Assembly: GCA_002189035.1 (NCBI GenBank)
Contig: NEEC01000016.1
Span: 1,635,001 to 1,699,000, forward strand
Reading direction: 5' to 3'
Length of the DNA: 64,000 bases
Source of the DNA: Utricularia gibba
Lineage: Eukaryota; Streptophyta; Magnoliopsida; Lamiales; Lentibulariaceae
Position numbers and translations under genes: made by a program. Position 1 is the first letter of the stretch, and each line of letters begins with the position of its first letter. This document shows, piece by piece, positions 1,000 through 64,000 of the stretch. Under the pieces are notes generated by a model. The model was not told the DNA's origin. It saw nothing but the letters and a program-made list of their open reading frames with translations, and made no database searches.

Positions 1000-1650
1000 A
1001 TGATTAGTGTGTGACTCGTTGGTTTTTTAGGATTAGGATTCAAAAAGACCAATCCATTAGTATAAAAACCAACCTATTAATTCGTATTATCTCGATCTAA
1101 AAAACCAGTCAAGATATGAGAAATCAGTCATATCTTTGAAGCAACTGAAAAAAACTTTAATTCTAAGATGAAATTGAAAGAAAAATAAAGAAGTAAAGTG
1201 TGGATAACTGGAAAAATGAGAGAAAGAAAGAAAAAACAATATCAATGATCTAAAATTTCAATATCAATATGTAAGGTCTAGGAGGCATCTCAGAAAAAAC
1301 AATGTAATAAAGCATAAATACTATTATCTATACTGAAAAATTAACCGAATCTTTCTTAACGAAGAAAGACTCAAAAGCTTCGAGCCAATAAAGACTAACA
1401 GGATTGACTCAAAATGAAATTGGATTATGAGCTCCGTTATAGAATTCTGACCTAATCATTAAATACGAAGCAGTGGGAACGATGGAAACTTTGAATACAA
1501 ACATTTTTAATGAATCGTACTGATTCACTAGTTAGGATGGCGAAATGAACAAAAAAAAATTCATATATTTTAAGAAAATATAAACAAGTGCTACGAAGAT
1601 TGCAAGAGTAAGCAAGAGTAAATATTCGCCCTCGAAAACTTTATTTATTT
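1000..1650 (+). pseudogene. rpl16: rpl16 exon 1 and partial group II intron; exon 2 missing
   Basis: Plastid rpl16 has a 9-base first exon followed by a ~1-kb group II intron. Here ATGATTAGT (1000-1008) is followed directly by GTGTGACTCG, which fits the group II 5' consensus GUGYG. Intron-like sequence follows. The ~400-base second exon, which encodes nearly all of uL16, is not found before rpl14 begins at 1869. The gene therefore lacks its coding body. The 3' limit of intron-derived sequence is uncertain; 1650-1868 could be rearranged spacer. Confidence 0.65.
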
Positions 1651-23838: not shown

Positions 23839-24156
23839 TTATTCATCATCACCACCCCTTTTATGCTTCTGCTCTTGATCGAATGCCAGCAACAATCTCA
23901 GGTCTCTGGTGCTGTAGGAGTATTCTTTACTACAGTCGCACTTCACCCTGTCGACTTCCCACGGGATGACTTCGCGTATTGTCATGAATCCAGATACAGA
24001 AAACACTAAGGATGCTGAAATGATAATAGAGCAGCTAAATTGTGAGGAAGAGCCGAAGGCAAGATCTGAAATGGGGCCTGGATCAAAAGGGAATAAGCTG
24101 CTGTAGCCATCAGTCCAACAAAATCCTCCTGTGCAACACAATTTTTGGTTGATCAC
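23839..24156 (-). CDS. Unrecognised small open frame with one hydrophobic segment
   Basis: A 105-codon open frame lies on the minus strand between the eS30 stop and the CLPP4 3' end. Its middle contains a ~20-residue hydrophobic stretch that could span a membrane, and it ends in a charged tail (KHKRGGDDE). I do not recognise a family. A GTGCAACACAA-type stretch near its start could hide an acceptor site, so it may be part of a spliced gene, an extended eS30 3' UTR, or chance. Nothing in the surrounding sequence decides between these. Confidence 0.2.
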   Translation of the reverse strand: MINQKLCCTGGFCWTDGYSSLFPFDPGPISDLAFGSSSQFSCSIIISASLVFSVSGFMTIREVIPWEVDRVKCDCSKEYSYSTRDLRLLLAFDQEQKHKRGGDDE

Positions 24157-24568
24157 CTGCTTAAAAATGGTGCAGGTGCTGGAGCATGCAGAAGCTCTAG
24201 ATAATGCAGAAGCTTATGAACCCTATTGAATTTTATCATTATTATGAATGATCCACCCCCTAATTTGGCGGTAGTGTTCTTTGGAGTGGGTGAAAATAAG
24301 ACACAAAAATCAATTACAGAATCGAAACTCAGGTATTCAGTCTGAGTTGTACATACCAGCAAGATTAGGATTCACGCTGAATTTCGCCTATTGAGTAGTC
24401 AAAGAAAAACATTCAAAAGAATACCAAGGGGATCAACCTGATAATGCCAGGTAGAAATCCCCTGATTTAGTGTGAAAAAAACACAGGAAATTGAACCATA
24501 GTAACCAATTTGTAACTGTTGAAGGGACCAATAGAAACCACTGAACCTCCCTGATGCCTGCTAGCCCT

Positions 24569-25299: not shown

Positions 25300-26724
25300 G
25301 GATAATATTTAACATTTCTCAAAAGTAAATGGCGTTCTTTCATGTTCTCCGATGATGCCCTTATCCGAGTGGGGGGTGGGAAATGATATATTGTAAAATA
25401 CTGGGGAGGCAAATAAGAATTCCTTAGATGCGTAGCAGGCGTGAGTGCAATAATAGAAGCTTCTATGCGATGTAAGAGATTTGGAAGGATCGAAGTCTGG
25501 TCCCGAAGAGTCAAATCTCTGGTCATGCTCATCAGTAATAAATTGGGGGATCCCAGTTTGGTGGGCATTGTAAATTTTTATTTACTTTTTTAACCCGCTA
25601 TTATTACCTAATTAATGGTTCAAACTCGGGATAATATTTATTTATTACGTTTCATTCCCTTTTTAGTCAATTTTCTTGTTTTTCATTGCAATTAAATTTT
25701 GTAGTAAGGAGGAGGTGCTCGCTGTTCTCCTTTTGCAAACAATGGCGCAGAGGAGCAAAATTGGGATTTTTTTTTTCTTTTGGTTTGGATGATTGATATT
25801 GGGTTGCGAGTTGAGGGCTTGGCGTAAGGGATAAATCTAAACTCTGGTTCACACGTGCAGTGCAGAAACAGAATCAGAGTGGTGGCACAGTCGAGACTGT
25901 AGAACAGCTCACAACTTCCCAAGTCAGTGGCTGGTCTGGTCTCGGGCTTGCGGGATTTCTGGATGCCGTAACATTTCACTGGGAAAATTGCTTTCTTTTT
26001 TTTTTCTCACTGCTTTGGAGGTGGGGTTGGATGGTGTGGTGCCAGCCGCCAACCACTACTGTCTGTGACTGCCATAATTTCCGCGTTTCTTGCTTCTCTT
26101 CGCACTGAAATCCTGGTTGATTTCATCTTCTTACACCGTCATGCTTTTGATATGTGAAGCCGTACGTCCGGAATGCCGATGATGTGTTGTTTTCTGGGTC
26201 TGTCGAGTCGAATCTTTTAGGCCGTTTTGAGTATAATTACAGCGCTATTGGAGTAGGTAAAGCTGATTGTAGTTCTCAAGGACCCAGGTGTATAAATGCG
26301 GGAAATTGTGATTTTGTGTCCGCCTTTTTGGTTGTGAGGGCAGGTTTTACCTAGATTCTGGTTTGGGTAGGCTTTTTTCTAAAACTCGAATTGAGGTTGA
26401 AGATGGTGGCGTGTTATCTAGGGTTTTGATTCGGTTGAAAGAAAATTCGCCCATTCTTGGTGGCGTAAGGGGAACGGAATCTGGGTTCTGCCTGAAATTT
26501 TGTAAGCTTCGGTGTCTCCCTTTTGGTGCAGTCGTATGATTACAGATTTCGATTTTCATCCTGTTCTACTCAATGGGTTCTCGATCTGGAGATCATGGGT
26601 TTGCGATGGCATCCTTCGCTGATCCCATCCGCAGTTCTTCCGTTGGGGAAGAGGAGTTTGTCCTCTTATTTTTGGTGATTTGAACCTTAGAAAGATCGCT
26701 TCTTGAGCCAGTGGTTTTTGCTGG
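25300..26724. other. Divergent upstream region between eS30 and the flippase gene
   Basis: No separate gene was found. The region separates the divergent eS30 and ALA1-type genes and should hold both promoters and the flippase 5' UTR. A CACGTG-containing ACACGTGC at about 25852 resembles a G-box. From about 26100 the sequence has the TTG/GTT-rich look of a plant 5' UTR, which may hide a leader intron. Confidence 0.4.
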
Positions 26725-29700
26725 ATGGACTCGAACTCCGACAAAGAAATTCATGAGAATACCTTTCATGTACCTCACCTTACGGGGAACTCGTCTCCTT
26801 CCTCGCACCATTCTGTTCAGTCGAGGATCTCTGATGGCCACACTGCGAAGGAGCCCGTCTTTAATGATCTGGGATCAAAACGTGTGAGGCATAGCTCAAA
26901 GGGTTCAGATTCGGAAGGATTCGGCTCCTTAAGTAAAGAGATGAATGATGATACAGCAAGGCTAATCTATATTAATGATCCCGAGAAAACGAATGAAAGA
27001 TTTGAATTTGCCGGAAACTACATTAGGACTTCCAAGTACACTTTCTTTACGTTCCTGCCTCGTAATTTATTTGAACAATTTCACAGGGTGGCATACATCT
27101 ATTTTCTTGTTATCGCGATCCTCAACCAGCTCCCTCAGTTGGCTGTATTTGGTCGTGGAGCTTCTATTATGCCATTAGCTTTTGTGTTGTTGGTCACTGC
27201 TATAAAGGATGCCTTTGAGGATTACAGGCGCTATAGGTCTGACAAGATTGAGAACAATCGGTTGGCTTGGGTTTTGGTAAATGGCGAGTTCCAGCAGGTA
27301 AAATGGAAGCATATCCGTGTTGGCCAGGTCCTTAAAGTTATTTCCAATGACACTCTTCCTTGTGATATGGTGCTGCTCTCAACTAGTGACTCGACTGGAG
27401 TTGCCTATGTGCAGACTACTAATTTGGATGGCGAGTCAAGTTTGAAAACTAGATATGCAAGGCAAGAGACACAAATAAAGAATATAGAGAAGGACAATAT
27501 TAGTGGCCTTATCAAATGTGAGGAGCCTCATAGATTTATTTATGGTTTCCATGGAAATATGGAGATTGATGGGAAGCGAATATCTCTTGGGCCTCTGAAC
27601 ATTATGCTACGTGGTTGTCAGCTGAAGAACACTGACTGGGTCCTTGGAGTAGCGGTTTACGCAGGCTTTGAGACCAAGGCAATGCTTAACAATTCAGGTG
27701 CTCCATCAAAAAGAAGCCGTCTTGAGACACGCATGAACCAGGAGATCATTTGTCTTTCTATTTGCCTGGTCGCCCTGTGTACTACAATCTCCATATGTCA
27801 TGGAATTTGGCTGGTACTTCACAGAAATGGATTTGTTCTTATGCAATTTTACAGGAAGGAGGATTATTCAAGGCCCAAAGTTCAAAACTATAAATTTTAC
27901 TCTTGGGGTTTGGAGATACTCTTTGTTTTTCTTATGGCAGTTATCGTTTTTCAAATTATGATTCCCATATCATTGTATATATCTATGGAGCTTGTTCGTG
28001 TGGGTCAGGCATTTTACATGAATCGAGATAAACATATGCTCGATGAAGTCTCAAATTCTAGATTTCAGTGCAGAGCGGTGAATATAAATGAGGATCTGGG
28101 ACAGGTCAAATATGTTTTCTCAGATAAAACTGGTACTCTTACTGAGAATAAAATGGTGTTTCGATGTGCGAGTATTGGGGGTCGGGACTACAGCAGTGCA
28201 GAGGAAAATAGTGAAGATGGTCCGTTGCCATGGCCTGTCCAAGGTTCGAAAAGTTCTATACCTCCAACCTTTCGCCTATGTTTTTTTTACTTAGAATGCT
28301 GTTTTGAAAAAAAAAATCAGTTACACTTTTATCCAGATTGCTTACATGCTTTGTTTGTAGAAGGGAGGAACAAGCAACCATTGAAGCTAAAGATGACAGT
28401 GAAAATTGACCCAGAGCTCTCTCGATTGTCCCAGTGCAAGAACTCTGATGAAAGCAGGTGTGTTCAGGATTTCTTCATTGCATTGGCTGCCTGCAACACC
28501 ATTGTGCCTGTTACTCTGGATGCACCAGATTCTACTGTGAAATTGATAGATTACCAGGGGGAATCCCCTGATGAGCAAGCGTTGGCTTATGCTGCTGCAG
28601 CCTATGGGTTTATGCTCGTTGAGAGAACTTCAGGGCACCTTGTTATTGATATCCATGGGGAAAGAATACGGTAAATATTTTTCTATTTTTTGAATGAATG
28701 AATATGTGGATTAAGAGTATGTTTATGCGTGAGTTCTTAGGGTATAATTTTTTATGTCAATTGGGCAGGTAATTTTGTTCAATTCTTCTCTGTAAACACC
28801 TGGATTATGCACCTTAGAGCTTTAACTATTGCACCCTTTTTAAGTAAATAGATGGTTTAGTTGAATCCGTCACAACCCGTGAACTTGGGAATATTTTCAT
28901 TGTATCTGGAAGATGAATAATTCTGCTCTCGAAATGGTTTTCTGATTTCTTGCATTTTTAAATTTTCTCTTTCTTTAGTTTTATTCTTTTTTTGCATAAC
29001 CGTTGTTGTGGCAGGTTCGATGTTCTGGGGTTGCATGAGTTTGATAGTGAGAGGAAGAGGATGTCAGTTGTGCTGGGGTATCCGGATAAGACAGTTAAGG
29101 TGTTTGTGAAAGGTGCTGATACGTCCATGTTTGGTATCATGGATAGAACACAAGGCTCTTGTATGTTAGATGGCACTGCAGAGCATGTTCATTTGTACGC
29201 TTCCAGGGGATTAAGAACTCTGGTTGTTGGAATGCATGAGCTGAGTTCATATGAATTTGAACATTGGCAGTCATCCTACCAGGCAGCTAGCATTGCGTTG
29301 GTTGGGAGAGCAGCTTGGCTTCGTAGAGTTGCCAATAGCATTGAACATAATCTCCGTATATTAGGTGCTACTGGGATTGAAGACAAATTGCAGCAAGGTG
29401 TACCTCAGGCAATTGATTGCTTAAGAAAAGCAGGCATCAAAGTCTTGGTTTTGACTGGTGACAAGCCAGAAACAGCCATATCAATTGGCTATTCATCTAA
29501 GCTCTTAACAAGCAATATGAGCCAAGTGGTGTTAAACAGCAACTCAATGGACTTATGTAGAAAGAGTATACAAGATGCTTTAGCCATGCTGAAGAAGTTC
29601 ACAACTGACTCTCATGATACACAGGAAGCTTCTCTCAAGGGAGAAGATCAAGTTGCTTTAATTATTGATGGCACAAGCCTCGTTCATATCCTGGATACAC

Positions 29701-31286
29701 AACTTGAAGATGATGTAATTATTTTATTTTCAGATTTCTTACACTATCATCATTTTATTCAACTGATCTTGTACTCCTTGCAGCTTTTCCGATTATCCAG
29801 CATGTGCTCTGTGGTATTATGTTGCCGGGTGGCTCCTATGCAGAAGTCTGGAATTGTTTCCATGATTAAAAAAAGAACTGATGACATGACTCTTGCTATC
29901 GGTGATGGTAAGTATCATTTTATCTTCAACTGGGGATAGAATAAGGTATGCATGTTAACCTCAAGTAAGCAATCATCTTCCATTGTTTGTAATACGCTGT
30001 AAATGTCAGGTGCAAATGATGTTTCAATGATTCAAATGGCTGATGTTGGCATAGGAATAAGTGGTCAAGAAGGCCGGCAAGCTGTTATGGCATCCGATTT
30101 TTCTATGGGCCAATTTAGGTTTTTGGTTCCATTATTATTAGTGCACGGTCATTGGAATTATCAGAGGATGAGCTACATGATATTATTTAACTTCTACAGA
30201 AATGCTGTTTTTGTTCTTATCTTATTCTGGTAAGTGTTGTTTCTGCATGATATTACGGATTGCTTACATTCTGTGAGAAACCACTGATTTCTCATTTATA
30301 ATTGAGAGCTAAATCTGGTTTTTAGACTGAATAGTGTGAAATCTTATGGATTCGAGTTGAAAAAGGGCTTGCCTGTGGTTTTAGTCTAGTTTTAGTCACT
30401 GTTTTATGTTCAGGATAGCATCTACATATTATAGAAAATATTCGAGTAATTCATTTTGTGTATGTTGTTAATCTGGAGGAGGCTGCCATATTGTGTCTCA
30501 TATTCACTTCTTTTCTTTTTGGCTTTTCTTCAGGTATGCCTTGTTTACTGGTTTCACACTTACAACTGCTATCACTGAGTGGAGCAGTTTACTGTATTCT
30601 GTATTATACACATCATTTCCAACGATAGTTGTGGGAATTCTTGACAAGGATTTGAGTAGGAGATCTCTCATGAAACAACCACAACTCTATGGAGCTGGTC
30701 AAAGGGAAGAAAATTACAACAGGACGTTGTTTTGGTTAACTATGGTAGATACTTTTTGGCAAAGTGTAGCTGCCTTCTTTTTACCTTTCATTGCGTACTG
30801 GGGAAGTGAAATTGATGCCTCGAGCTTAGGAGATCTTTGGACAGTTGCAGCAGTAGTAATGGTGAATATAAATCTAGCCATGGATGTTCACCGGTGGCAC
30901 TGGGCTATACATTCAGCTATCTGGGGATCCATCATCGCCACGTTCATCTGCGTCATGATTATCGATGTCGTGCCTACGATGCCTGGTTACTGGTACACCA
31001 CTTGCAAAATCAAATCTTCCATCCTTCTTCTTTCATTATTTTGCAATGTATACTCATCTGCAGATCCTCTTGCAGGGCGTTCTTTCATGTGGCAAAGACT
31101 GAACTCTTCTGGATTTGCTTGGCAATTGTGACGGTAACTGCACTGGTCCCTCGGTTTGTTGCGAAGGTTTGTGTTCAGTTGTTCTGTCCAAGCGACATTC
31201 AGATAGCCAGAGAAGCTGAAAAATTCAGCAACTCTCGGGAGTCCCAAGTGGAAATGAGTGAAATCTTGGATCCACCTCGGAGATGA
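26725..31286 (+). CDS. ALA1: P4-type ATPase phospholipid flippase, ALA1-like, seven exons
   Basis: Predicted aminophospholipid flippase that moves lipids from the outer to the cytosolic leaflet of plasma or endomembranes, with an ALIS (CDC50) beta subunit. Exons: 26725-28243, 28361-28670, 29015-29714, 29784-29907, 30010-30229, 30534-30992, 31076-31286. All introns are GT-AG. The total is 3543 bases, 1180 residues, against 1158 in Arabidopsis ALA1. Landmarks are the N-terminal DLGSKRVRH and [13 protein letters not shown] at residues 235-238 (dephosphorylation loop), [12 protein letters not shown] with the phosphorylated Asp467, [22 protein letters not shown] at the exon 4/5 junction, and the C-terminal RRs of EILDPPRR. 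Roughly ten membrane segments are present. The conserved N-terminal and C-terminal motifs point to ALA1 rather than the ALA2 or ALA4-12 groups. No lesion. Introns 1 and 3 are in frame and stop-free. Confidence 0.93.
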
Positions 31287-31599
31287 CAAAGAAAGCAAAC
31301 TCGCTCTCTTTCTGGTTAGATTTTTCCTCCTAGGGGTTGAATTATCATTTGTATATCGCATGCTGCTGCTCCAATAGATCAACCCTGTAATTTCAAGATA
31401 CATGAATCTCACAAATATTCTTCAATTCTTGATAGCACAACCTTTCTATGTTATTTCTAGTTTTCTTAACAGATCAAATCTTATGTTTAGAGAGAAAAGG
31501 GATGGAGGTTGAAAAAAAGGAGCGTGAATGTTGTTACATTCAGTAGCAATTTGCATCCACCAGCAACAACTCTCTGCAGTCTGCACACCTGGTTTCATG

Positions 31600-31763
31600 T
31601 GTTGTGTCAAATGGGAGCGGCGCATGCTGTCCTGAATTGCCCTGTCTGCAATGTCTTCCTCGGCCCGCCCCAGTGGATGCAGACATGCAGTGGTCTCTTT
31701 CCACACAGTGAGAGAGGGCAGGGCAATTCAGGACAATATGCGCAGCTCCCATTTGATATGGCG
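31600..31763 (+). ncRNA. MicroRNA-precursor-like hairpin
   Basis: Arms 31607-31647 and 31716-31756 pair over 41 positions with two mismatches and three G-T pairs. Weaker pairing continues outward to about 31600/31763. The loop is ~68 bases. Such long, nearly perfect stems with a few mismatches and a moderate loop are what plant MIR precursors look like. It lies 320 bases past the flippase stop codon, either in its 3' UTR or as a separate unit. I do not recognise a conserved miRNA family in either arm. A foldback transposon relic is the alternative. Strand of transcription is unknown; plus is an assumption. Confidence 0.5.
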
Positions 31764-31799
31764 TTTTTTCCCAACATCAGTCATCTCTTTCCACATAGT

Positions 31800-32640
31800 C
31801 TTGTCCGGAATCCGGTGGATCGTCTGTGCATATGTTTTCTACTGTGTCGCCTCCGCAAAGCAGCTCTCAATGAAGCGATGCACGTTCTGTCTACAAGGAG
31901 ATGAACTCAAGGAACCCCCTGGGCCGCCAACGAGGAAGAGGCGTAAATCCATCCAGAGAAAACCCACCTAAAATGCATAACACGAGAACAGCACACAGGG
32001 AAGCGTTCCAGAAATGGGCAAGGTTTCCAACGGTGAGAGGCGTGCCTAACGGTGTTGGTCGGTCGCCGTCTCCTTGGCATCCAGGAAGTTCCCTCTGAAT
32101 CCGATGAAAGTCAAAAGGGCATCTATCTATCTATCTCCGAGTATCAATTTGCGTACCTTTTGGGAAGCTGAGATGTATGCGTTGACAGAGTGCACGCCTG
32201 CGCGGCGCCATTTAATGCAATTCCCCCTCGACAAAGCAAGGAGACGAAACACGGAAGGAAACCAACCAACATAAACACAGCCCTAAATCCTATCAAAATT
32301 AGAATTAGTATTCGTATTCCAAATGCTCGGATTTTATTATATCTTATTACTCGTTTTTAAATTACATTCTATAATAATATCATATTATAATTTTTTGTCG
32401 AAAAAGATACGGTTTATATTTTTTGCTAGTATTTTATTCCAAAAAGGATAATTAATATACATAACTTTTTAAATCACAAAAATATGTATAATGAAAAAGA
32501 GAAAAATACAAGAACAATATTTGAAATTTCAATCAATATAGAGAGTTTAATTCTTAAATTTTAAAATTATAAAAAACAACTTAAATTGTCAAAACTGTGA
32601 AAACCAACTTTTGTTTTCATATTACAAATTTTTTCTATCA
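31800..32640. other. Spacer after the flippase gene
   Basis: To about 32290 the sequence has normal GC and no recognisable gene. From 32290 to 32640 it is AT-rich. A CTAT tetranucleotide run lies near 32123. Confidence 0.35.
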
Positions 32641-35409
32641 CATTTGAAGTTTGATGAATCAAATGATATCCTTATTAGGGTTATATCGTATTTACATTTT
32701 GTATTTTTCAAAATGATAATAGTTATGTCATATTCGTATTTTATATAATTTAAAGTGATAATAATTATATCAAGTCTCATATGATGTATTATTATAATAA
32801 AATTATGATCAAAATCAATTAATTTAATAATATAAGGGTTTAAATATATAATTTCATAAATTTGAAAATAAACTATTTACAAAAAAAAAGTAATTTGAGA
32901 GATGTGTGACCTGATTTTTTTAATTTGAAATTTAAATTTTATGGTAACTATATTAAATTATATATTGAATATATATATATATAATATTTAAATTGAATAA
33001 TATATTGAATTATATTATTAATGAGTTGATATAGACATTGGATTTTAGAATGATTGTCTTTAAATTGGACTCGGATTTTTCGGATATCAAATTTTTGTTA
33101 CACAAGATCAATGTTGTCTGATTTTCTTATTTTGACCTGGGAAATGATGATGCACGGGAGACAAACGATACAGACATATATACTGGCTTTATTTCTTCAT
33201 CAAGACCAAGCCAACTGTTACAACAACACAGTTCTGGGATTGGTAAAGATGGACATGAGTATGGGGAAATTTATTCTAACATCATAATTCGTATGAGAAA
33301 TGCGGCCCGGGGCTCAGACAAGAGCTAGAGCAGAAAGGCTGTAGGGGTTAGCAAAAGTTGGAGAAGGTGTGGTGCAAGAAACATACGCGATCACCGCATT
33401 CAGATGTTCAGTGGGATGGAAGTTGTCATAGAAGATGTATTTGGTTCTATCGGGGCAAGGGGGGACTGCTGAGTTTTTAGCACACTGCCCTACTGCAGCC
33501 GCTGTATATTCTGTTGATTCCGATACCGCGCAACAGGGGATGTTCGTGACATTGAAACCTGTATCTCATTGGATTAGAACAACACACTGTAACTGAAAAG
33601 TATAAGCTTTTTTTTTTGTTTTGTTACCTAGATCTGCAGGATTTCCAGAAGCAGAGATGGCGAAAGCGTCGATGTAAGTGAACTTAGTCCCAATCAATTG
33701 CGCGCTAAGCTGAGTCACCAGTGCTTTGAGCTTTTCGTTGAAGAGAGACACTGCGGCGTTAATAAAGTCGACGCATGGAGATCCGTTGGTGGGAGGGTAC
33801 AATTCTAGCTCCTGCGGTATGCATCCGATCAAACCCACGTTGAAAACCGCGATCTTCCTCGCTCCCAAAGCGTAAAGAGTCTGCATACCCAAGACCGACA
33901 TCATTCGTAAAATCGAAATTCAGAATGAAGATAGAGATTGAGGTTGAGGTACCAGCCTGGAGTTGAGTAGAGTATTTGGTGATCAACTTATTTGCAAAGG
34001 CGCTAGGTGTGCCTCGCGATTCCTGGAGCCTGTCCTTAAGATAATAGTTATTGATGTAATCGTTGCTGCCGATGTTGATTATGTATAAGCACTGCTGCAG
34101 GCTCTGACGACTCAAGCCCGTGGAGGGTATTGTTAATGCATGATGGATCAACTGCTGGTCCATTGAATACCTTTCTCCCTGCACGATCAGACAAGAAAGC
34201 TTTCTCCTCTTGTAGTGATCACGCTTACAGACATAGGTTCGAAGCAGTTAGCTTTTCAGGTTCTTACAACGTTAGACCCCGATTCCTCGAGGATCCCGGC
34301 GGCTCCCGACGCATAGTTGACGCCCTTTGAGGCGGTGCCCGGGTTGCGACACGTGGATGCCCAGGAAGGAATAAAGGTTGGATATCCAAGACATTGAGCT
34401 ACACGAAGAAAAAAGGCATTCACAACAGTGTAACGATGATCGGTGTGTAAAATTTGTGGTGAATGAAGATGAGGTCTTCGGATCTGGATTACACCAGACA
34501 AGTTTCTTTTTTTCTTGCATCAACCTGTTCCAAGTCTCGTTGTCGGGGAAACATGTGTACTGATCGGGATCTCAGAAGCTTCGCATATTATAATAAATCT
34601 ATTATCTGTCTTTTTAGATATTCAAACTTGGAATGAATGTGTAGTTTAGAACCTATGTAATCGGGGATGTTCTTCCCGTTGGAGAATCTTCCGGTGGGGG
34701 TGTTGCCGTCGCCGTAGTCGATCCCGTAGGGAAGATAGTTGGCCTTAGCCTTGGTGACCAGGTCGTTGTTGTTGCCGTTATCGAACTGGGAGTCCCCGAA
34801 GAAGAAGAGACAGGGGACCTGGGGATCGCCCCGAACCAAGAACTTCGGCTGTATAGCGATGCAGAGCAGCATGGCCATCGCCATATGCGCACTTAGCTTC
34901 GCAGCACCACCTGCCATCTTCTGCTGCTTCCATCACCCACAGTTGACGATGCTATATATAACCAGCAATGCTGCAGTAGGGTTGGGAGTTCCCTGAATGA
35001 TACACACAACGAAATTTAATACCTTTTGGTGGACTTGGAATAGAGAATGTGTCCCGCATGCTTGATCATGGACGTAGAGATTCCCCTTCTACCATGGCAA
35101 GAAGGAGCGTTGACATGCTATGGCTCATGTATGTGACTTTGTGTATGGTGCAGAATAAAAAAAAAAAAGTACAAACGAATCTGAATAGGGGTTGAATTTT
35201 GAAGCTTGTACAAATACGAACAAAAAATGTGCCCAAAGTTAGCGTAATGTTTTGAAAGCCAAGGAACTGGTTTTCACAGTTCAAGAGGCAGGATTAAAAA
35301 CAGAAGGATATGGAGGATGGACCATGTGTGTCTCAGACAGTCCTTGAACTCTACGCATGCAGCCTTGGATCTAAAAATGAATAGGTTTTCAGGTGAGTTT
35401 GGTGAGGGA
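32640..35409. repeat. Segmental duplication, copy 1
   Basis: This unit is repeated in the same orientation at about 56340-59003. Homology starts in AT-rich sequence (TTAGGGTTATATCGT here, TTAAGATTATATCGT there), runs through the whole GDSL gene and its promoter, and stops after GGTTTTCAGGTGAGTTTGGTGAGG. Coding parts are nearly identical, while AT-rich flanks have diverged by small indels. Confidence 0.85.
33314..34917 (-). CDS. GDSL esterase/lipase, five exons (intact duplicate)
   Basis: Predicted secreted SGNH-hydrolase of the plant GDSL family, acting on lipid or acyl-ester substrates in the cell wall or apoplast; the substrate is not predictable. Minus-strand exons: 34917-34653, 34398-34268, 34178-33957, 33880-33628, 33558-33314, giving 371 residues, normal for the family. 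A hydrophobic signal peptide covers about residues 12-30. Block I is FFFGDSQFDNGNNN with nucleophile Ser43, block II is GVNYASGAAGI, block III is INIGSNDYINNYY, and block V is YDNFHPTE with Asp335 and His338. Intron 3 (33956-33881, 76 bases) must be spliced as GC-AG to keep frame; the nearby GT would shift it. No lesion found. Confidence 0.9.
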
Positions 35410-47402: not shown

Positions 47403-49888
47403 CTGATAACGCATATTTTTGAGTAGCTCAATGCATAGAATTTACTCATTTTACGCTACAAAAATTAAGTTTTATTGCCTAGTTTCGTATTTTTGCGCAT
47501 AAGCACCGTAATTGTGTTATTTTAGTCAAAGGTTATGCTATGATAAAATATCTGAGTTGGAATTCTTGCATGTAGAAACGAAATTGGCCCCTCTTGATGC
47601 TCATTTTCTTAAAACTGCTAGACTTATTCGGGCACGAGGAAGTGGATTTGTTTTTAAGTCTCTTGCAGGACTTTGAGGGTAGGCACCTCCAGTGAAAGAA
47701 AAGGGAAAAACCCCTAATCAGACAGCCATGACCCAAAGGAATGAGAAAGTTTTCTACTGAACTGAAAGGATTGACATGATAAATGATAGGCTTGGGAATT
47801 TGCTAAGGAAGTGAAGGAACTAAAATAGGGAGTGAAGAACTCCTCCCTAACCAAGTAACATCGCTGCATTGTCTTAGTTTTATTTTTATTTTTATTTTAT
47901 TTTTTTAGGGCGTTAGTCTAAGTTAGGAGTAATTTAGTAGTTCGGTACTAGGATCAGGAGAATTTTGCAAGCTATTTGAGGAATTTTCATATGCACGCGT
48001 GATGCTTTTCATGAAGTACAGGATGCATGAATTTTGTTTTAACCATTTCTACACCTGTGAGCATGAATTTTAACCTACTTATCTTTGTGAGGTAGCAACA
48101 TGTGTGATGAATTCTGATTTGCGCAATCGAGATTTTTTTTGTGCAAGCTGACATATTTGGTTCTTTCATGGATACTGGTGGTCGAAAGGCTTGTAGAAAG
48201 ATAAAAAAAAAGAGGGGGTCAGAAAAGCATCATCACAAAAAAGCGATGAGACCCGATGTCTTGAAAAGCAACACACAATTAAAAAGCGTGTGTAGACAAC
48301 AGAGTAAAGAGAGAAGGAAGGTTATGAGAATGACTCAGAGGAGTTCAGTAGTAGGAAACCCTCAGGAGAAATAAAGGAGGGGAGCGAAAATTGCCTAAGT
48401 TAAGCTTGAAACTTTCACTACTCTTGATCTCTGTACAAATGAAAAAAAAAAATGAAAAGAGGAAGAAATGAAAAGAGACCATCCCTTTGAAAGCCTAATT
48501 GTGTCATGTTAGCTTATTTAATCTTTGAAGGCACTTATTTTGATGAAATTCACATGTATGCTTGAGTGATTACCCGTTTTGCACACTAACACTCTTTAAA
48601 TTCTTGCATTCTGGACTTAAATGTTAAGTGTCTGTATGGCTGTCTGGAAATCTCTCAATTGCTTACCTCCTATTAGTCTTAGTTAGGACTTGAGGACAAG
48701 TCTAGTGTCGTTGTAGCATAATGTGATAACGCATATTTTTGAGTAGCTCAATGCATAGAATTTACTCATTTTGCGATACAAAAATTAAGTTTTATTGCCT
48801 AGTTTCGTATTTTTGCGCATAAACACCGTAATTGTGTTATTTTAGTCATAGTTGGGACTAAATCATTTAGTCCCAACCTTCTAATAGTTTTATTCGAGCA
48901 ATGCAGTGTAGGTCGCAACACAAATCCCAAGGAGCCGAACATGCACAGTGTAGTGGCAGAAGATGAGTCCAAAAGTCTGAAAAATGGTGCACACAAAATC
49001 CAAGGAGAAAAAAGGGAGATTTTGGACAAAAAGGGGGAAAGGTGGAGAGAGTAGGCAGATCTCCCTTTGGAGACTCAAGACAAGTTTCTGGAGATTTTTT
49101 TGGAGGAAGAAGAAGGAGGGACGACGAACCAGAAGAACATAGCTTCTCTTGAGAAATTATTTTCGTTCTTCATGTTTAATGTTCCTAGCTAAGACTAGAT
49201 TTGGATTTCCTGTGTGAATGAAGTGTTTGTCCTACTTTTGCTTCATATTGTTAATTGTTGTTTAGCATTTGTAGCCAAGATGTTGCTTAGTATCTGCTAT
49301 GAAGTTGTTTTACTTTCCATTATCATGAGTAGCTAAGCACTTAGGGGGTGCCTTGGGGTAAAAAGGGGAGAAATATGCTAATACATCCTTAGACCTAATA
49401 AATCATAAGTCACACTACTTACTTAGCAAAACAGGATAGATCCAGGAAGGGGAGGTAGTGAAACCCAACTAACAACCCTAATTAGAGGTAGATCAAAGAT
49501 TAGGGGGAAAAACAAGAATCCGGGTAGACCTAGATCTTGTAAGTTAGTTGTATGATTTTTGATTTATGTGAGCTTGTTTAGTGATAGGCATACATCCCCT
49601 ATGAGTCCCAAGGCATCACCCATTCCATTCCAGAAACCACCGAATCCAAACTTGTTACCTTTTACTTACTGCATTCCATCGTAGATATGTTTTATTCCTA
49701 GCTAAGACCAATTTTACCAACGTGACATTGATTCCTTGCATTGACCTTCACATAGCAAGCACCTAGCTCCTTGTGTTCGACCCTAGTCCACTATGCTCAT
49801 AATTGTTTTATGCTCTAATGTGTATTAGATTATAAATTTATTTGATAGGAAAGTTTACATTTACGACGTGCGAATTTTTTGTTTTTCA
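47403..49888 (+). mobile_element. Deleted gypsy-type LTR element nested in copia
   Basis: The first ~123 bases (47403-47525, starting TGATAACGCATATTTTTGAG) are repeated almost exactly at 48723-48845, the start of a ~1166-base LTR that ends TTTTTCA at 49888. The sequence before the second copy has a TTGAGGACAAG purine stretch as in gypsy 3' ends. The left LTR is thus cut down to 123 bases and only ~1.2 kb of internal sequence remains. Flanks GCTTC (left) and GCTTG (right) look like a 5-base target-site duplication with one change. Copia integrase sequence is interrupted here. Confidence 0.7.
48723..49888 (+). repeat. Gypsy-type LTR, copy B (complete 3' LTR)
   Basis: Best-preserved member of the LTR family also seen at 2570-3628 and, inverted, at 63829-64000. 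It starts TGATAACGC, ends TTTTTCA, and has the near-terminal TTGTGTTCGACCCTAGTCCA stretch typical of plant gypsy LTR ends. Confidence 0.7.
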
Positions 49889-56339: not shown

Positions 56340-59003
56340 GTCTTAAGTTTGAAGAATTAAGTAATACCCCTATTAAGATTATATCGTGTTTACGTCTCAT
56401 ATGCTTCAAAATGATGATGGTTATATTGTATTTATATCTCGTATTGTATATCATTATAACAACATTAGGGTCAAAATTAGTTTATTATAGTAATATAAGA
56501 GATTAAGTATGTAATTTTATAAGTTTGGAGATAAACTACTTATACAAAAAATAAGTTGAGAAAATTATGACATAATTTTAAAACTTTAAGATTAAAATTT
56601 TTATATTAACTATAACTTGGAATATTGCTAACAAACTCTACCTTTAAAATTTTTTACAAAATTTAAAAGATTTAAATTAAATAATATATTTAGTTATATT
56701 ATTAATGAGTTGATCTATTCATTTGATTTTAGAATGATGGTCTTTAAATTCCACACAGATTTTTCGGATATCAAATTTTTGTTACACAAGATCAAAGTTG
56801 GTCTGATTTTTTTACTTTGACAACGGAATACATGATGCATCGGAGACACACGATACCAGTCATATAATGGCTTTATTTCTTCATCAAGACCAAGCCAACT
56901 ATTACATACAACACAGTTCTGGGACTGGCAAAGATGGACATGATTTTGGGGAAATTTATTCTGAGAAATGCGGCCCGGGGCTCAGGCAAGAGCTAGAGCA
57001 GAAAGGCTGTAGGGGTTGGCAAAAGCTGGAAACGGTGTGGTGCAAGAAACACACGCCATCACCGCATTCAGATGTTCAGTGGGATGGAAGTTGTCGTAGA
57101 AGACGTATTTGGTTCTATCGGGGCAAGGGGGGACTGCTGAGTTTTTAGCACACTGCCCTACTGCAGCCGTTGTAGATTCCGTTGATTCCGATACCGCGCA
57201 ACAGGGGGCGTTCATGACAGTGAAACCTGCATCCCATTGGATTAGAACAATACACTGTAGCTGAAAAGTATAAGCTTTTTTTATTTTTTTTTACCTAGTG
57301 CAGGATTTCCAGAAGCAGAGATGGCGAAAGCGTTAATGTAAGTGAACTTGGTGCCAATCAACGAAGTACTAAGCTGAGTGACCAGTAATTTGAGCTTTTC
57401 GTTGAAGACGGCCACTGCGGAGTTAATGAAATCGACGCATGGAAATCCGTTGGTGGGAGGGTACAATTCTAGCTCCTGCGGTATGCATCCGATCAAACCC
57501 ACGTTGAAAACCGCGATCTTCCTCGCTCCCAAAGCGTAAAGAGTCTGCATACCCAAGACCGACATCATTCGTAAAATCGAAATTCAGAATGAAGATAGAG
57601 ATTGAGGTTGAGGTACTAGCCTGGAGTTGAGTAGAGTATTTGGTGATCAACTCATCTGCAAAGGCGCTAGGCGTGAATTGCTTTCTCAGGGGGCTGTCCT
57701 TAAGATAATAGTTGTTGATGTAATCGTTGCTGCCGATGTTGATTATGTATAAGCACTGCTGCAGGCTCTGAGAACTCAAGCCCGTGATGGGTATTGTTGA
57801 TTCATGATGCTTCAACTGCACGTCCATTGAATACCTTTCTCCCTGCACGAGCAAACAAGAGAGCTTTCTCCTCTTGTAATGATCACGCTTACAGACATAG
57901 GTTCTAAGCAGTAATGCTTTTAAGGTTCTTACCAAGTTAGCCCCGAATTCTCGAGGATCCCAGAGCCTCCCGACGCATAGTTGACGCCCTTTGAGGAGGT
58001 GCCCGGGTTGCCAGCCATGGATGCCCAGGAAGGAATAGAGGTCTGATATCCAAGAAATTGAGCTACACGAAGAAAAAAGGCATTCACAACAGTGTAACGA
58101 TGATCGGTGTGTGAAATTTGTGGTGAATGAAGATGAGGTCTTCGGATCTGGATTACAACAGACAAGTTTCTTTTTTTCTTGCATCAACCTGCGGCAAACC
58201 TCGTTGTCGGGGAAACATGTGTACTGATCGGGATCTCAGAAACTTCCCATTTCATAATAAATCTATTATCTGTCTTTTTAGATTTTCAAAATTTGGAATC
58301 AATGTGTCGTTTAGAACCTATGTAATCGGGGATGTTCTTCCCGTTGGAGAATCTTCCGGTGGGGGTGTTGCCGTCGCCGTAGTCGATCCCGTAGGGAGGA
58401 TAGTTGGCCTTAGCCTTGGTGAGCAGGTCGTTGTTGTTGCCGTTATCGAACTGGGAGTCCCCGAAGAAGAAGAGACAGGGGACCTGGGGATCGCCCCGAA
58501 CCAAGAACTTCGGCTGCATAGCGATGCAGAGCAGCATGGCTATCGCCATACGCACACACAGCTTCGCAGCATCACCCGCCATCTTCTGCTCCTTCCATCA
58601 CCCACAGTTGACAATACACATTAGAAAATTCGATACCTTTTGGTGGACTTGGAATAGAGAATGTGTCCCGCATGCTTGATTATGGACGTGTAGCTTCCCC
58701 TTCCACCAAGGCAAGAAGAAACGTTGACATGCATGCTATGGGTCATGTATGTGTCTTTTTGTTTGGTGCAGAATAAAAAAAAAAAAAAGAAAGTACAAAG
58801 GGATCTGTATAGGGGTTGAATTTTGAAGTTTGTACAAATACGACCAAAAAATGTGCCCAAAGTTAGCGTGCTGTTTTGAAAGCCAAGGAACTGCTTTCAC
58901 AGCTTAGGAGATTGACCATGTGTGTCTTAGACAGTCCTCGAACTCTACGCATGCAGCCTTGGATCTCAAAATGAACAGGTTTTCAGGTGAGTTTGGTGAG
59001 GTA
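56340..59003. repeat. Segmental duplication, copy 2
   Basis: Second copy of the unit at 32640-35409, same orientation, centres ~23.6 kb apart. Its left edge coincides with the truncated end of a copia element. The right edge is followed by unrelated sequence after GGTGAG. Confidence 0.85.
56982..58582 (-). pseudogene. GDSL esterase/lipase duplicate with 1-base frameshift
   Basis: Near-identical to the GDSL gene at 33314-34917. Minus-strand exons by homology: 58582-58318, 58062-57933, 57842-57621, 57544-57295, 57226-56982. All motifs are present (FFFGDSQFDNGNNN, INIGSNDYINNYY, YDNFHPTE) and intron 3 (57620-57545) is again GC-AG. Exon 2 is 130 bases instead of 131: before the GTAAGA donor copy 1 has GGGGTCTAACGTT and this copy GGGGCTAACTTG. 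The frame is lost when exon 2 joins exon 3, so protein would stop soon after residue ~131. Exon 4 lacks one whole codon relative to copy 1, which is harmless. Probably a recent pseudogene unless splicing at intron 2 differs. Confidence 0.75.
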
Positions 59004-63828: not shown

Positions 63829-64000
63829 AGGTGCTTGCAATGTGAAAGTTAATGCATGAAATCAGTGTCACGTTGGTAAAATTGGTCTTAGCTAGGAATA
63901 AAACAGAACTATGATGGAATGCAGTAAGGAAAAGCAACAAGTTTTGGGATTCGGTAGTTTCTGGAATGGAATGGGTGATGCCTTGGGACTCCTAGGGAAT
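63829..64000 (-). mobile_element. Gypsy-type LTR, copy C (inverted, cut by window end)
   Basis: The complement of this stretch matches about 49600-49760 of copy B (GAGTCCCAAGGCATCACCCA, TTCCTAGCTAAGACCAATTT, ACCAACGTGACA). It continues beyond the right edge. The family's last ~130 bases (equivalent to 49760-49888) are absent to its left, so this copy is truncated. Confidence 0.7.

Follow-up and report, generated by a model that had tools for sequence, protein, structure and literature searches.

The long hairpin near the middle of the 64-kb stretch of Utricularia gibba DNA that was analysed (the window) is real and not a product of chance. By homology it is located in what is left, after decay, of the 3' end of a MUSTANG-type gene on the opposite strand, MUSTANG genes being domesticated Mutator-like transposases. 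Alignment to the paralogs of this gene indicates that arms, loop and repeats are rearranged pieces of one gene end. With a probability of about three in four, the hairpin is a local inverted duplication in the decayed gene, and now an inert relic without function; what speaks against inertness is that candidate 21-mers have kept good pairing to the intact paralog. A pseudogene with a local inverted duplication is ordinary in kind, and this one is unusually legible in detail.

The stem pairs over 41 positions, 31607–31647 with 31716–31756, with two mismatches (G.A and C.A) and three G.T pairs, and a recount of the coordinates, mismatches and G-T pairs given in the preliminary description reproduced them exactly. 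A repeat finder delimits the arms to 38 nt (31607–31644 and 31719–31756), 92% complementary and with 74 nt between them. The three stem positions nearest the loop are incidental, and comparison with the paralogs suggests that the inverted duplication ends at CCCTG. On the + strand the hairpin folds with -100 kcal/mol, compared to -59.7 +/- 4.3 for dinucleotide shuffles (z -9.4, none of 200 shuffles as good), and with the same shuffle approach the minus strand gives -88.2 kcal/mol (z -8.6). Of all 200-nt stretches in the window it is the most stable, with -99 against -68 for the next, and the earlier judgement that the pairing is strong for chance is borne out. Among inverted repeats with arms of at least 25 nt and spanning no more than 400 nt, it is also the only one that a search with 12-base seeds detected in 142 kb, comprising the window and other pieces of the same genome. 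In the whole assembly (100.09 Mb, 516 contigs) the complete hairpin is found once, and the homologous single copies of an arm are those of two coding paralogs.

The relic consists of about the last 100 codons and part of the 3' UTR, and is oriented tail-to-tail with a flippase gene whose stop codon is about 320 bases before the hairpin (Table 1). Compared to the paralog on contig C505, the relic shows 83% identity over 31775–31889 and 84% over 31580–31648 (blastn/tblastn); both blocks are collinear with C505:1069831–1070156, and the region also matches contig C412. At the protein level the match reads CRQNVHRFIESCFAEATQ*KTYAQTIHRIPDKTMWKEM (tblastn), and the relic is disrupted by an in-frame TAG, deletions and frame breaks. 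Its low edge in the 3' UTR, at about 31525, is approximate, as the alignment weakly carries on to 31406; the 3' UTR alignment over 31406–31602 scores 39, and none of 300 mononucleotide shuffles exceeds 23. Just beyond the relic, the DNA at 31911–32889 is duplicated about 45 kb downstream (C402:1711317–1712322, locus L015) with 72–81% identity, and the truncated edge of the relic coincides with the boundary of this duplication.

Table 1. Positions in the window of the hairpin, of the gene pieces that make it up and of the adjacent flippase gene.
Feature	Position	Strand	Evidence
P4-ATPase (flippase) gene, exons	26707..31286	+	Pfam PF16209 PhoLip_ATPase_N, ORFs
MUSTANG-type 3'-end relic	31525..31904	-	blastn/tblastn to C505 (L013) and C412 (L014)
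Hairpin as possible transcript	31600..31763	+	fold -100 kcal/mol, z -9.4
5' arm, original collinear copy, with C-terminal zinc-knuckle codons and stop, QTGQFRTACAAPI*	31607..31644	-	collinear with C505 3' end
Inner loop, the gene's own RPRKK region, same orientation as relic	31653..31682	-	C505 alignment
Outer loop, direct duplicate of relic 31778–31799	31687..31709	-	alignment vs shuffles
3' arm, inverted duplicate of 5' arm inserted into relic, reads GQFRTICAAPI*	31719..31756	+	
Relic coding sequence beside insertion, homologous to VGKAMEV codons of C505	31757..31785	-	weak alignment

The intact paralog (G000:C505, L013) is a single uninterrupted frame of 749 amino acids ending in CSRCNQTGHFRTTCAAPI*, located in one exon, with the Pfam domains PF03108 (MuDR DNA-binding), PF10551 (MULE) and PF04434 (SWIM) above the cut-off. 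These three domains in a single exon constitute the architecture of MUSTANG genes, and the MUGA group lacks the PB1 domain (PMC3435246). No PB1 domain was found by Pfam in the C505 single-exon frame, to which the search was confined. Copies of the family with at least 59% identity are present only on C505, C412 and C414, and no inverted match, as expected of terminal inverted repeats, was found between the flanks of C505. The source gene is thus classified as MUSTANG-type, a putative MUGA-like domesticated transposase, with the three domains in one exon, few copies and no terminal inverted repeats; since mobile Mutator-like transposases share all three domains, it is the low copy number and the lack of terminal repeats that carry the domesticated reading. 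In contrast to the published MUSTANG (MUGA) genes, which C505 resembles in its domains, exon structure and few close copies (PMC3435246), the copy in the window is a 3' end only, disrupted and internally rearranged. A 100-base match with 75% identity, perhaps a small shared repeat, connects 24108–24196 in the Clp-protease neighbourhood of the window with the flank of the C505 gene (L013, 724–823).

The C412 copy (L014, C412:620735–622871), with its homology to the relic near 622,846, is a further close copy, interrupted by a TAG and by shifts of frame, and is either a recent pseudogene or the result of assembly errors. In both C505 and C412 the stretches homologous to the hairpin region are coding and antisense to the + strand of the window. 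The closest flippase paralog is also located on the C412 contig, about 60 kb from the MUSTANG copy, and this co-occurrence of the two genes would fit an old duplication from which the window and the C412 region both descend. The genome of U. gibba is about 100 Mb and has undergone two recent whole-genome duplications (PMC8333044).

Read in the sense of the gene, the 3' arm is inserted upstream of the 5' arm. The inner loop aligns to C505 with a score of 17.5 (shuffles 7.5 +/- 1.2, none of 1000 reaching it), and a gene stretch has been lost by deletion between the inner loop and the 5' arm. The outer loop aligns to its source with a score of 16 (shuffles 6.3 +/- 1.2, again none of 1000), a piece of about 22 bp beside the insertion being present twice in direct orientation; this is the source of the pair of CTCTTTCCACA repeats that had been described, the first of which is at 31695 as given, and the second at 31785 and not at 31787. 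The sequence at 31757–31785, next to the insertion, aligns weakly to the VGKAMEV codons, with 16 of 1000 shuffles reaching the score. A G.U-rich extension at the base of the stem (31599–31606 with 31757–31764) gives an apparent strand bias, which was considered as a sign of selection for RNA pairing and rejected, the flanks coming from different parts of the gene. The extension is probably a chance pairing, because the paralogs place one flank in the 3' UTR and the other, by the weak alignment, in coding sequence.

Both arms carry GGGCAATTC where C505 and C412 have GGCCATTTC, and these two substitutions, shared by the arms and absent from the paralogs, indicate that the duplication postdates the onset of decay; a zinc-knuckle histidine codon is among the sites already mutated in the relic and common to both arms. 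The arms have since diverged at three of 38 positions, two changed in the 5' arm and one in the 3' arm (polarised by eye, against two paralogs only). These differences give one G.U pair and two mismatches on either RNA strand, and the equal pairing on both strands suggests no bias or selection toward pairing. No compensatory change and no signal of selection were found. In the arm, 6 of 42 positions are different from C505, compared to about 17% elsewhere in the relic, and preservation of the arms is not clearly above that of the remaining relic. The same interval in C505 and C412, where there is no hairpin, folds with -69 and -72 kcal/mol per 260 nt, compared to -108 here.

From this arrangement we infer that one serial template switch during decay, producing a local inverted duplication, best explains arms, loop and repeats jointly. 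A polymerase replicating or repairing the dying gene would have jumped to the opposite strand as its template, read 38 bp of it in reverse, returned to a slightly earlier point and continued, after which the palindrome would have drifted without selection and without function. New hairpins, among them those of microRNA loci, have been reported to arise by template switching (PMC8794818), and those cases likewise have a reverse-complement repeat made within one locus and parallel changes nearby. They were, however, deduced along phylogenies of mammalian microRNAs and rRNA, whereas here the comparison is with paralogs only, and there is an extra direct duplication. The route is read from the final arrangement, and a series of separate steps would result in the same pattern.

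A foldback or MITE-type transposon would also have short terminal-repeat-like arms around a short loop. We give this origin practically no credence, as no further copy of the hairpin was found in the 100-Mb assembly, a single host gene accounts for both arms and loop, and no target-site duplication is seen by eye. The sequence occurs at its own locus and at single sites in coding paralogs only, and MITE or foldback membership was rejected. The genome search that had been suggested for further copies thus returned none with the form of a hairpin, and a multicopy transposon is not supported. The preliminary description had offered three options, a young lineage-specific MIR gene, a structure in the 3' UTR of the flippase transcript or a foldback relic, and was right in kind with the relic, but the relic is that of a MUSTANG-type host gene and not of a transposon foldback. 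The 3' UTR option is not supported, since the sequence comes from the neighbouring tail-to-tail gene and no matching sequence or hairpin is present downstream of the flippase paralogs on C412 and C411.

A conserved miRNA was likewise rejected. In Rfam, with permissive thresholds, the best matches are animal microRNA families far below their gathering scores, and these matches arise only from the shape of the stem; the earlier statement that neither arm matches a conserved family is in agreement with this. No 14-mer of the arms was found in the main texts of open papers. An end of GAATTGCCCTG recalls that of miR399, but the other half differs and the resemblance was dropped.

Plant MIR genes are characterised by a foldback of less than 300 nt containing a 21–22-nt duplex with at most five mismatches. 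The hairpin, with a span of 150 nt and two mismatches in a 21-nt duplex, lies within these limits, and both its arms and flanks resemble a coding gene, as in MIR genes born by inverted duplication. It could be a young or proto-MIR gene, transcribed from its own promoter or by read-through from the flippase gene and diced to 21–22-nt RNAs that would silence C505. Should the inert relic happen to be transcribed, its RNA would also fold into a stem open to cleavage by a Dicer-like enzyme. Against the C505 mRNA, the 21-mer at 31607–31627 (UCAAAUGGGAGCGGCGCAUGC) has two mismatches (target score 3), and another candidate 21-mer pairs with C412 at two mismatches. In the genome, the best site for the 31607–31627 21-mer outside its own locus and the paralogs has three mismatches and is located on C409, the only such site within three. 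At this age of the duplicate, however, target pairing follows automatically from homology alone, and the preservation of the arms and the lack of compensatory change described above also speak against a MIR gene, which we regard as unlikely.

Inverted duplication is a published route to young MIR genes. In Arabidopsis 16 of 48 non-conserved MIR families show an origin from coding genes through inverted duplication (PMC1790633), and of the MIR genes related to pseudogenes or TEs, most were born in this way (PMC3237417). Like MIR163, MIR161 and MIR824 (PMC1790633), the hairpin is a foldback with arms and flanks homologous to a coding gene that is a potential target, but here the duplication is short and inside a decayed gene copy, and the hairpin is known from its sequence alone. 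Drift and death are expected to be perhaps the commonest fate of such newborn loci (PMC1790633). For U. gibba there are small-RNA libraries (BioProject PRJNA526734), and 71 loci of miRNAs have been reported, together with two miRNAs that are putatively species-specific (PMC8333044). The full history, in which template switching in a dying MUSTANG duplicate would have given rise to a newborn MIR gene that now silences the surviving sister gene after genome duplication, is highly improbable.

The hairpin, or an antisense transcript, might instead be diced imprecisely, giving a mixture of small RNAs with an effect on the paralogs or a role in marking the locus. Such an siRNA stage is reported for new inverted duplications (PMC1790633), and the gene family to which the hairpin is antisense still has an intact member. 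The stretch of homology is short, however, with an identity to the paralogs of only about 83–86%, and we consider a source of siRNAs very unlikely.

Other features were noted in the window. The stretch 1373–1419 (+) is matched in Rfam by the plastid rpl16 group II intron and is probably plastid DNA that was inserted in the nucleus. Two copies of a segment of about 2.2 kb, called a tandem array, are located at 32977–35273 and 56661–58897 with about 88–96% identity; their minus-strand frames resemble, by eye, a GDSL-type lipase, and the one short frame that was compared to Pfam has no match there. A long inverted duplicate, 49594–49764 and 63829–64000, about 14 kb apart and 87–93% identical, is cut by the end of the window.

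The locus gives a clear picture of how the inverted-duplication model of MIR birth begins, as the source gene, the surviving paralog, the inverted copy and the direct duplication recording the switching path can all be recognised to this day. If it gives rise to small RNAs, a MIR gene would have been captured close to its birth, with both parent and target known, and if it does not, it would be a worked example showing that a strong single-copy plant hairpin is not by itself evidence of a microRNA.
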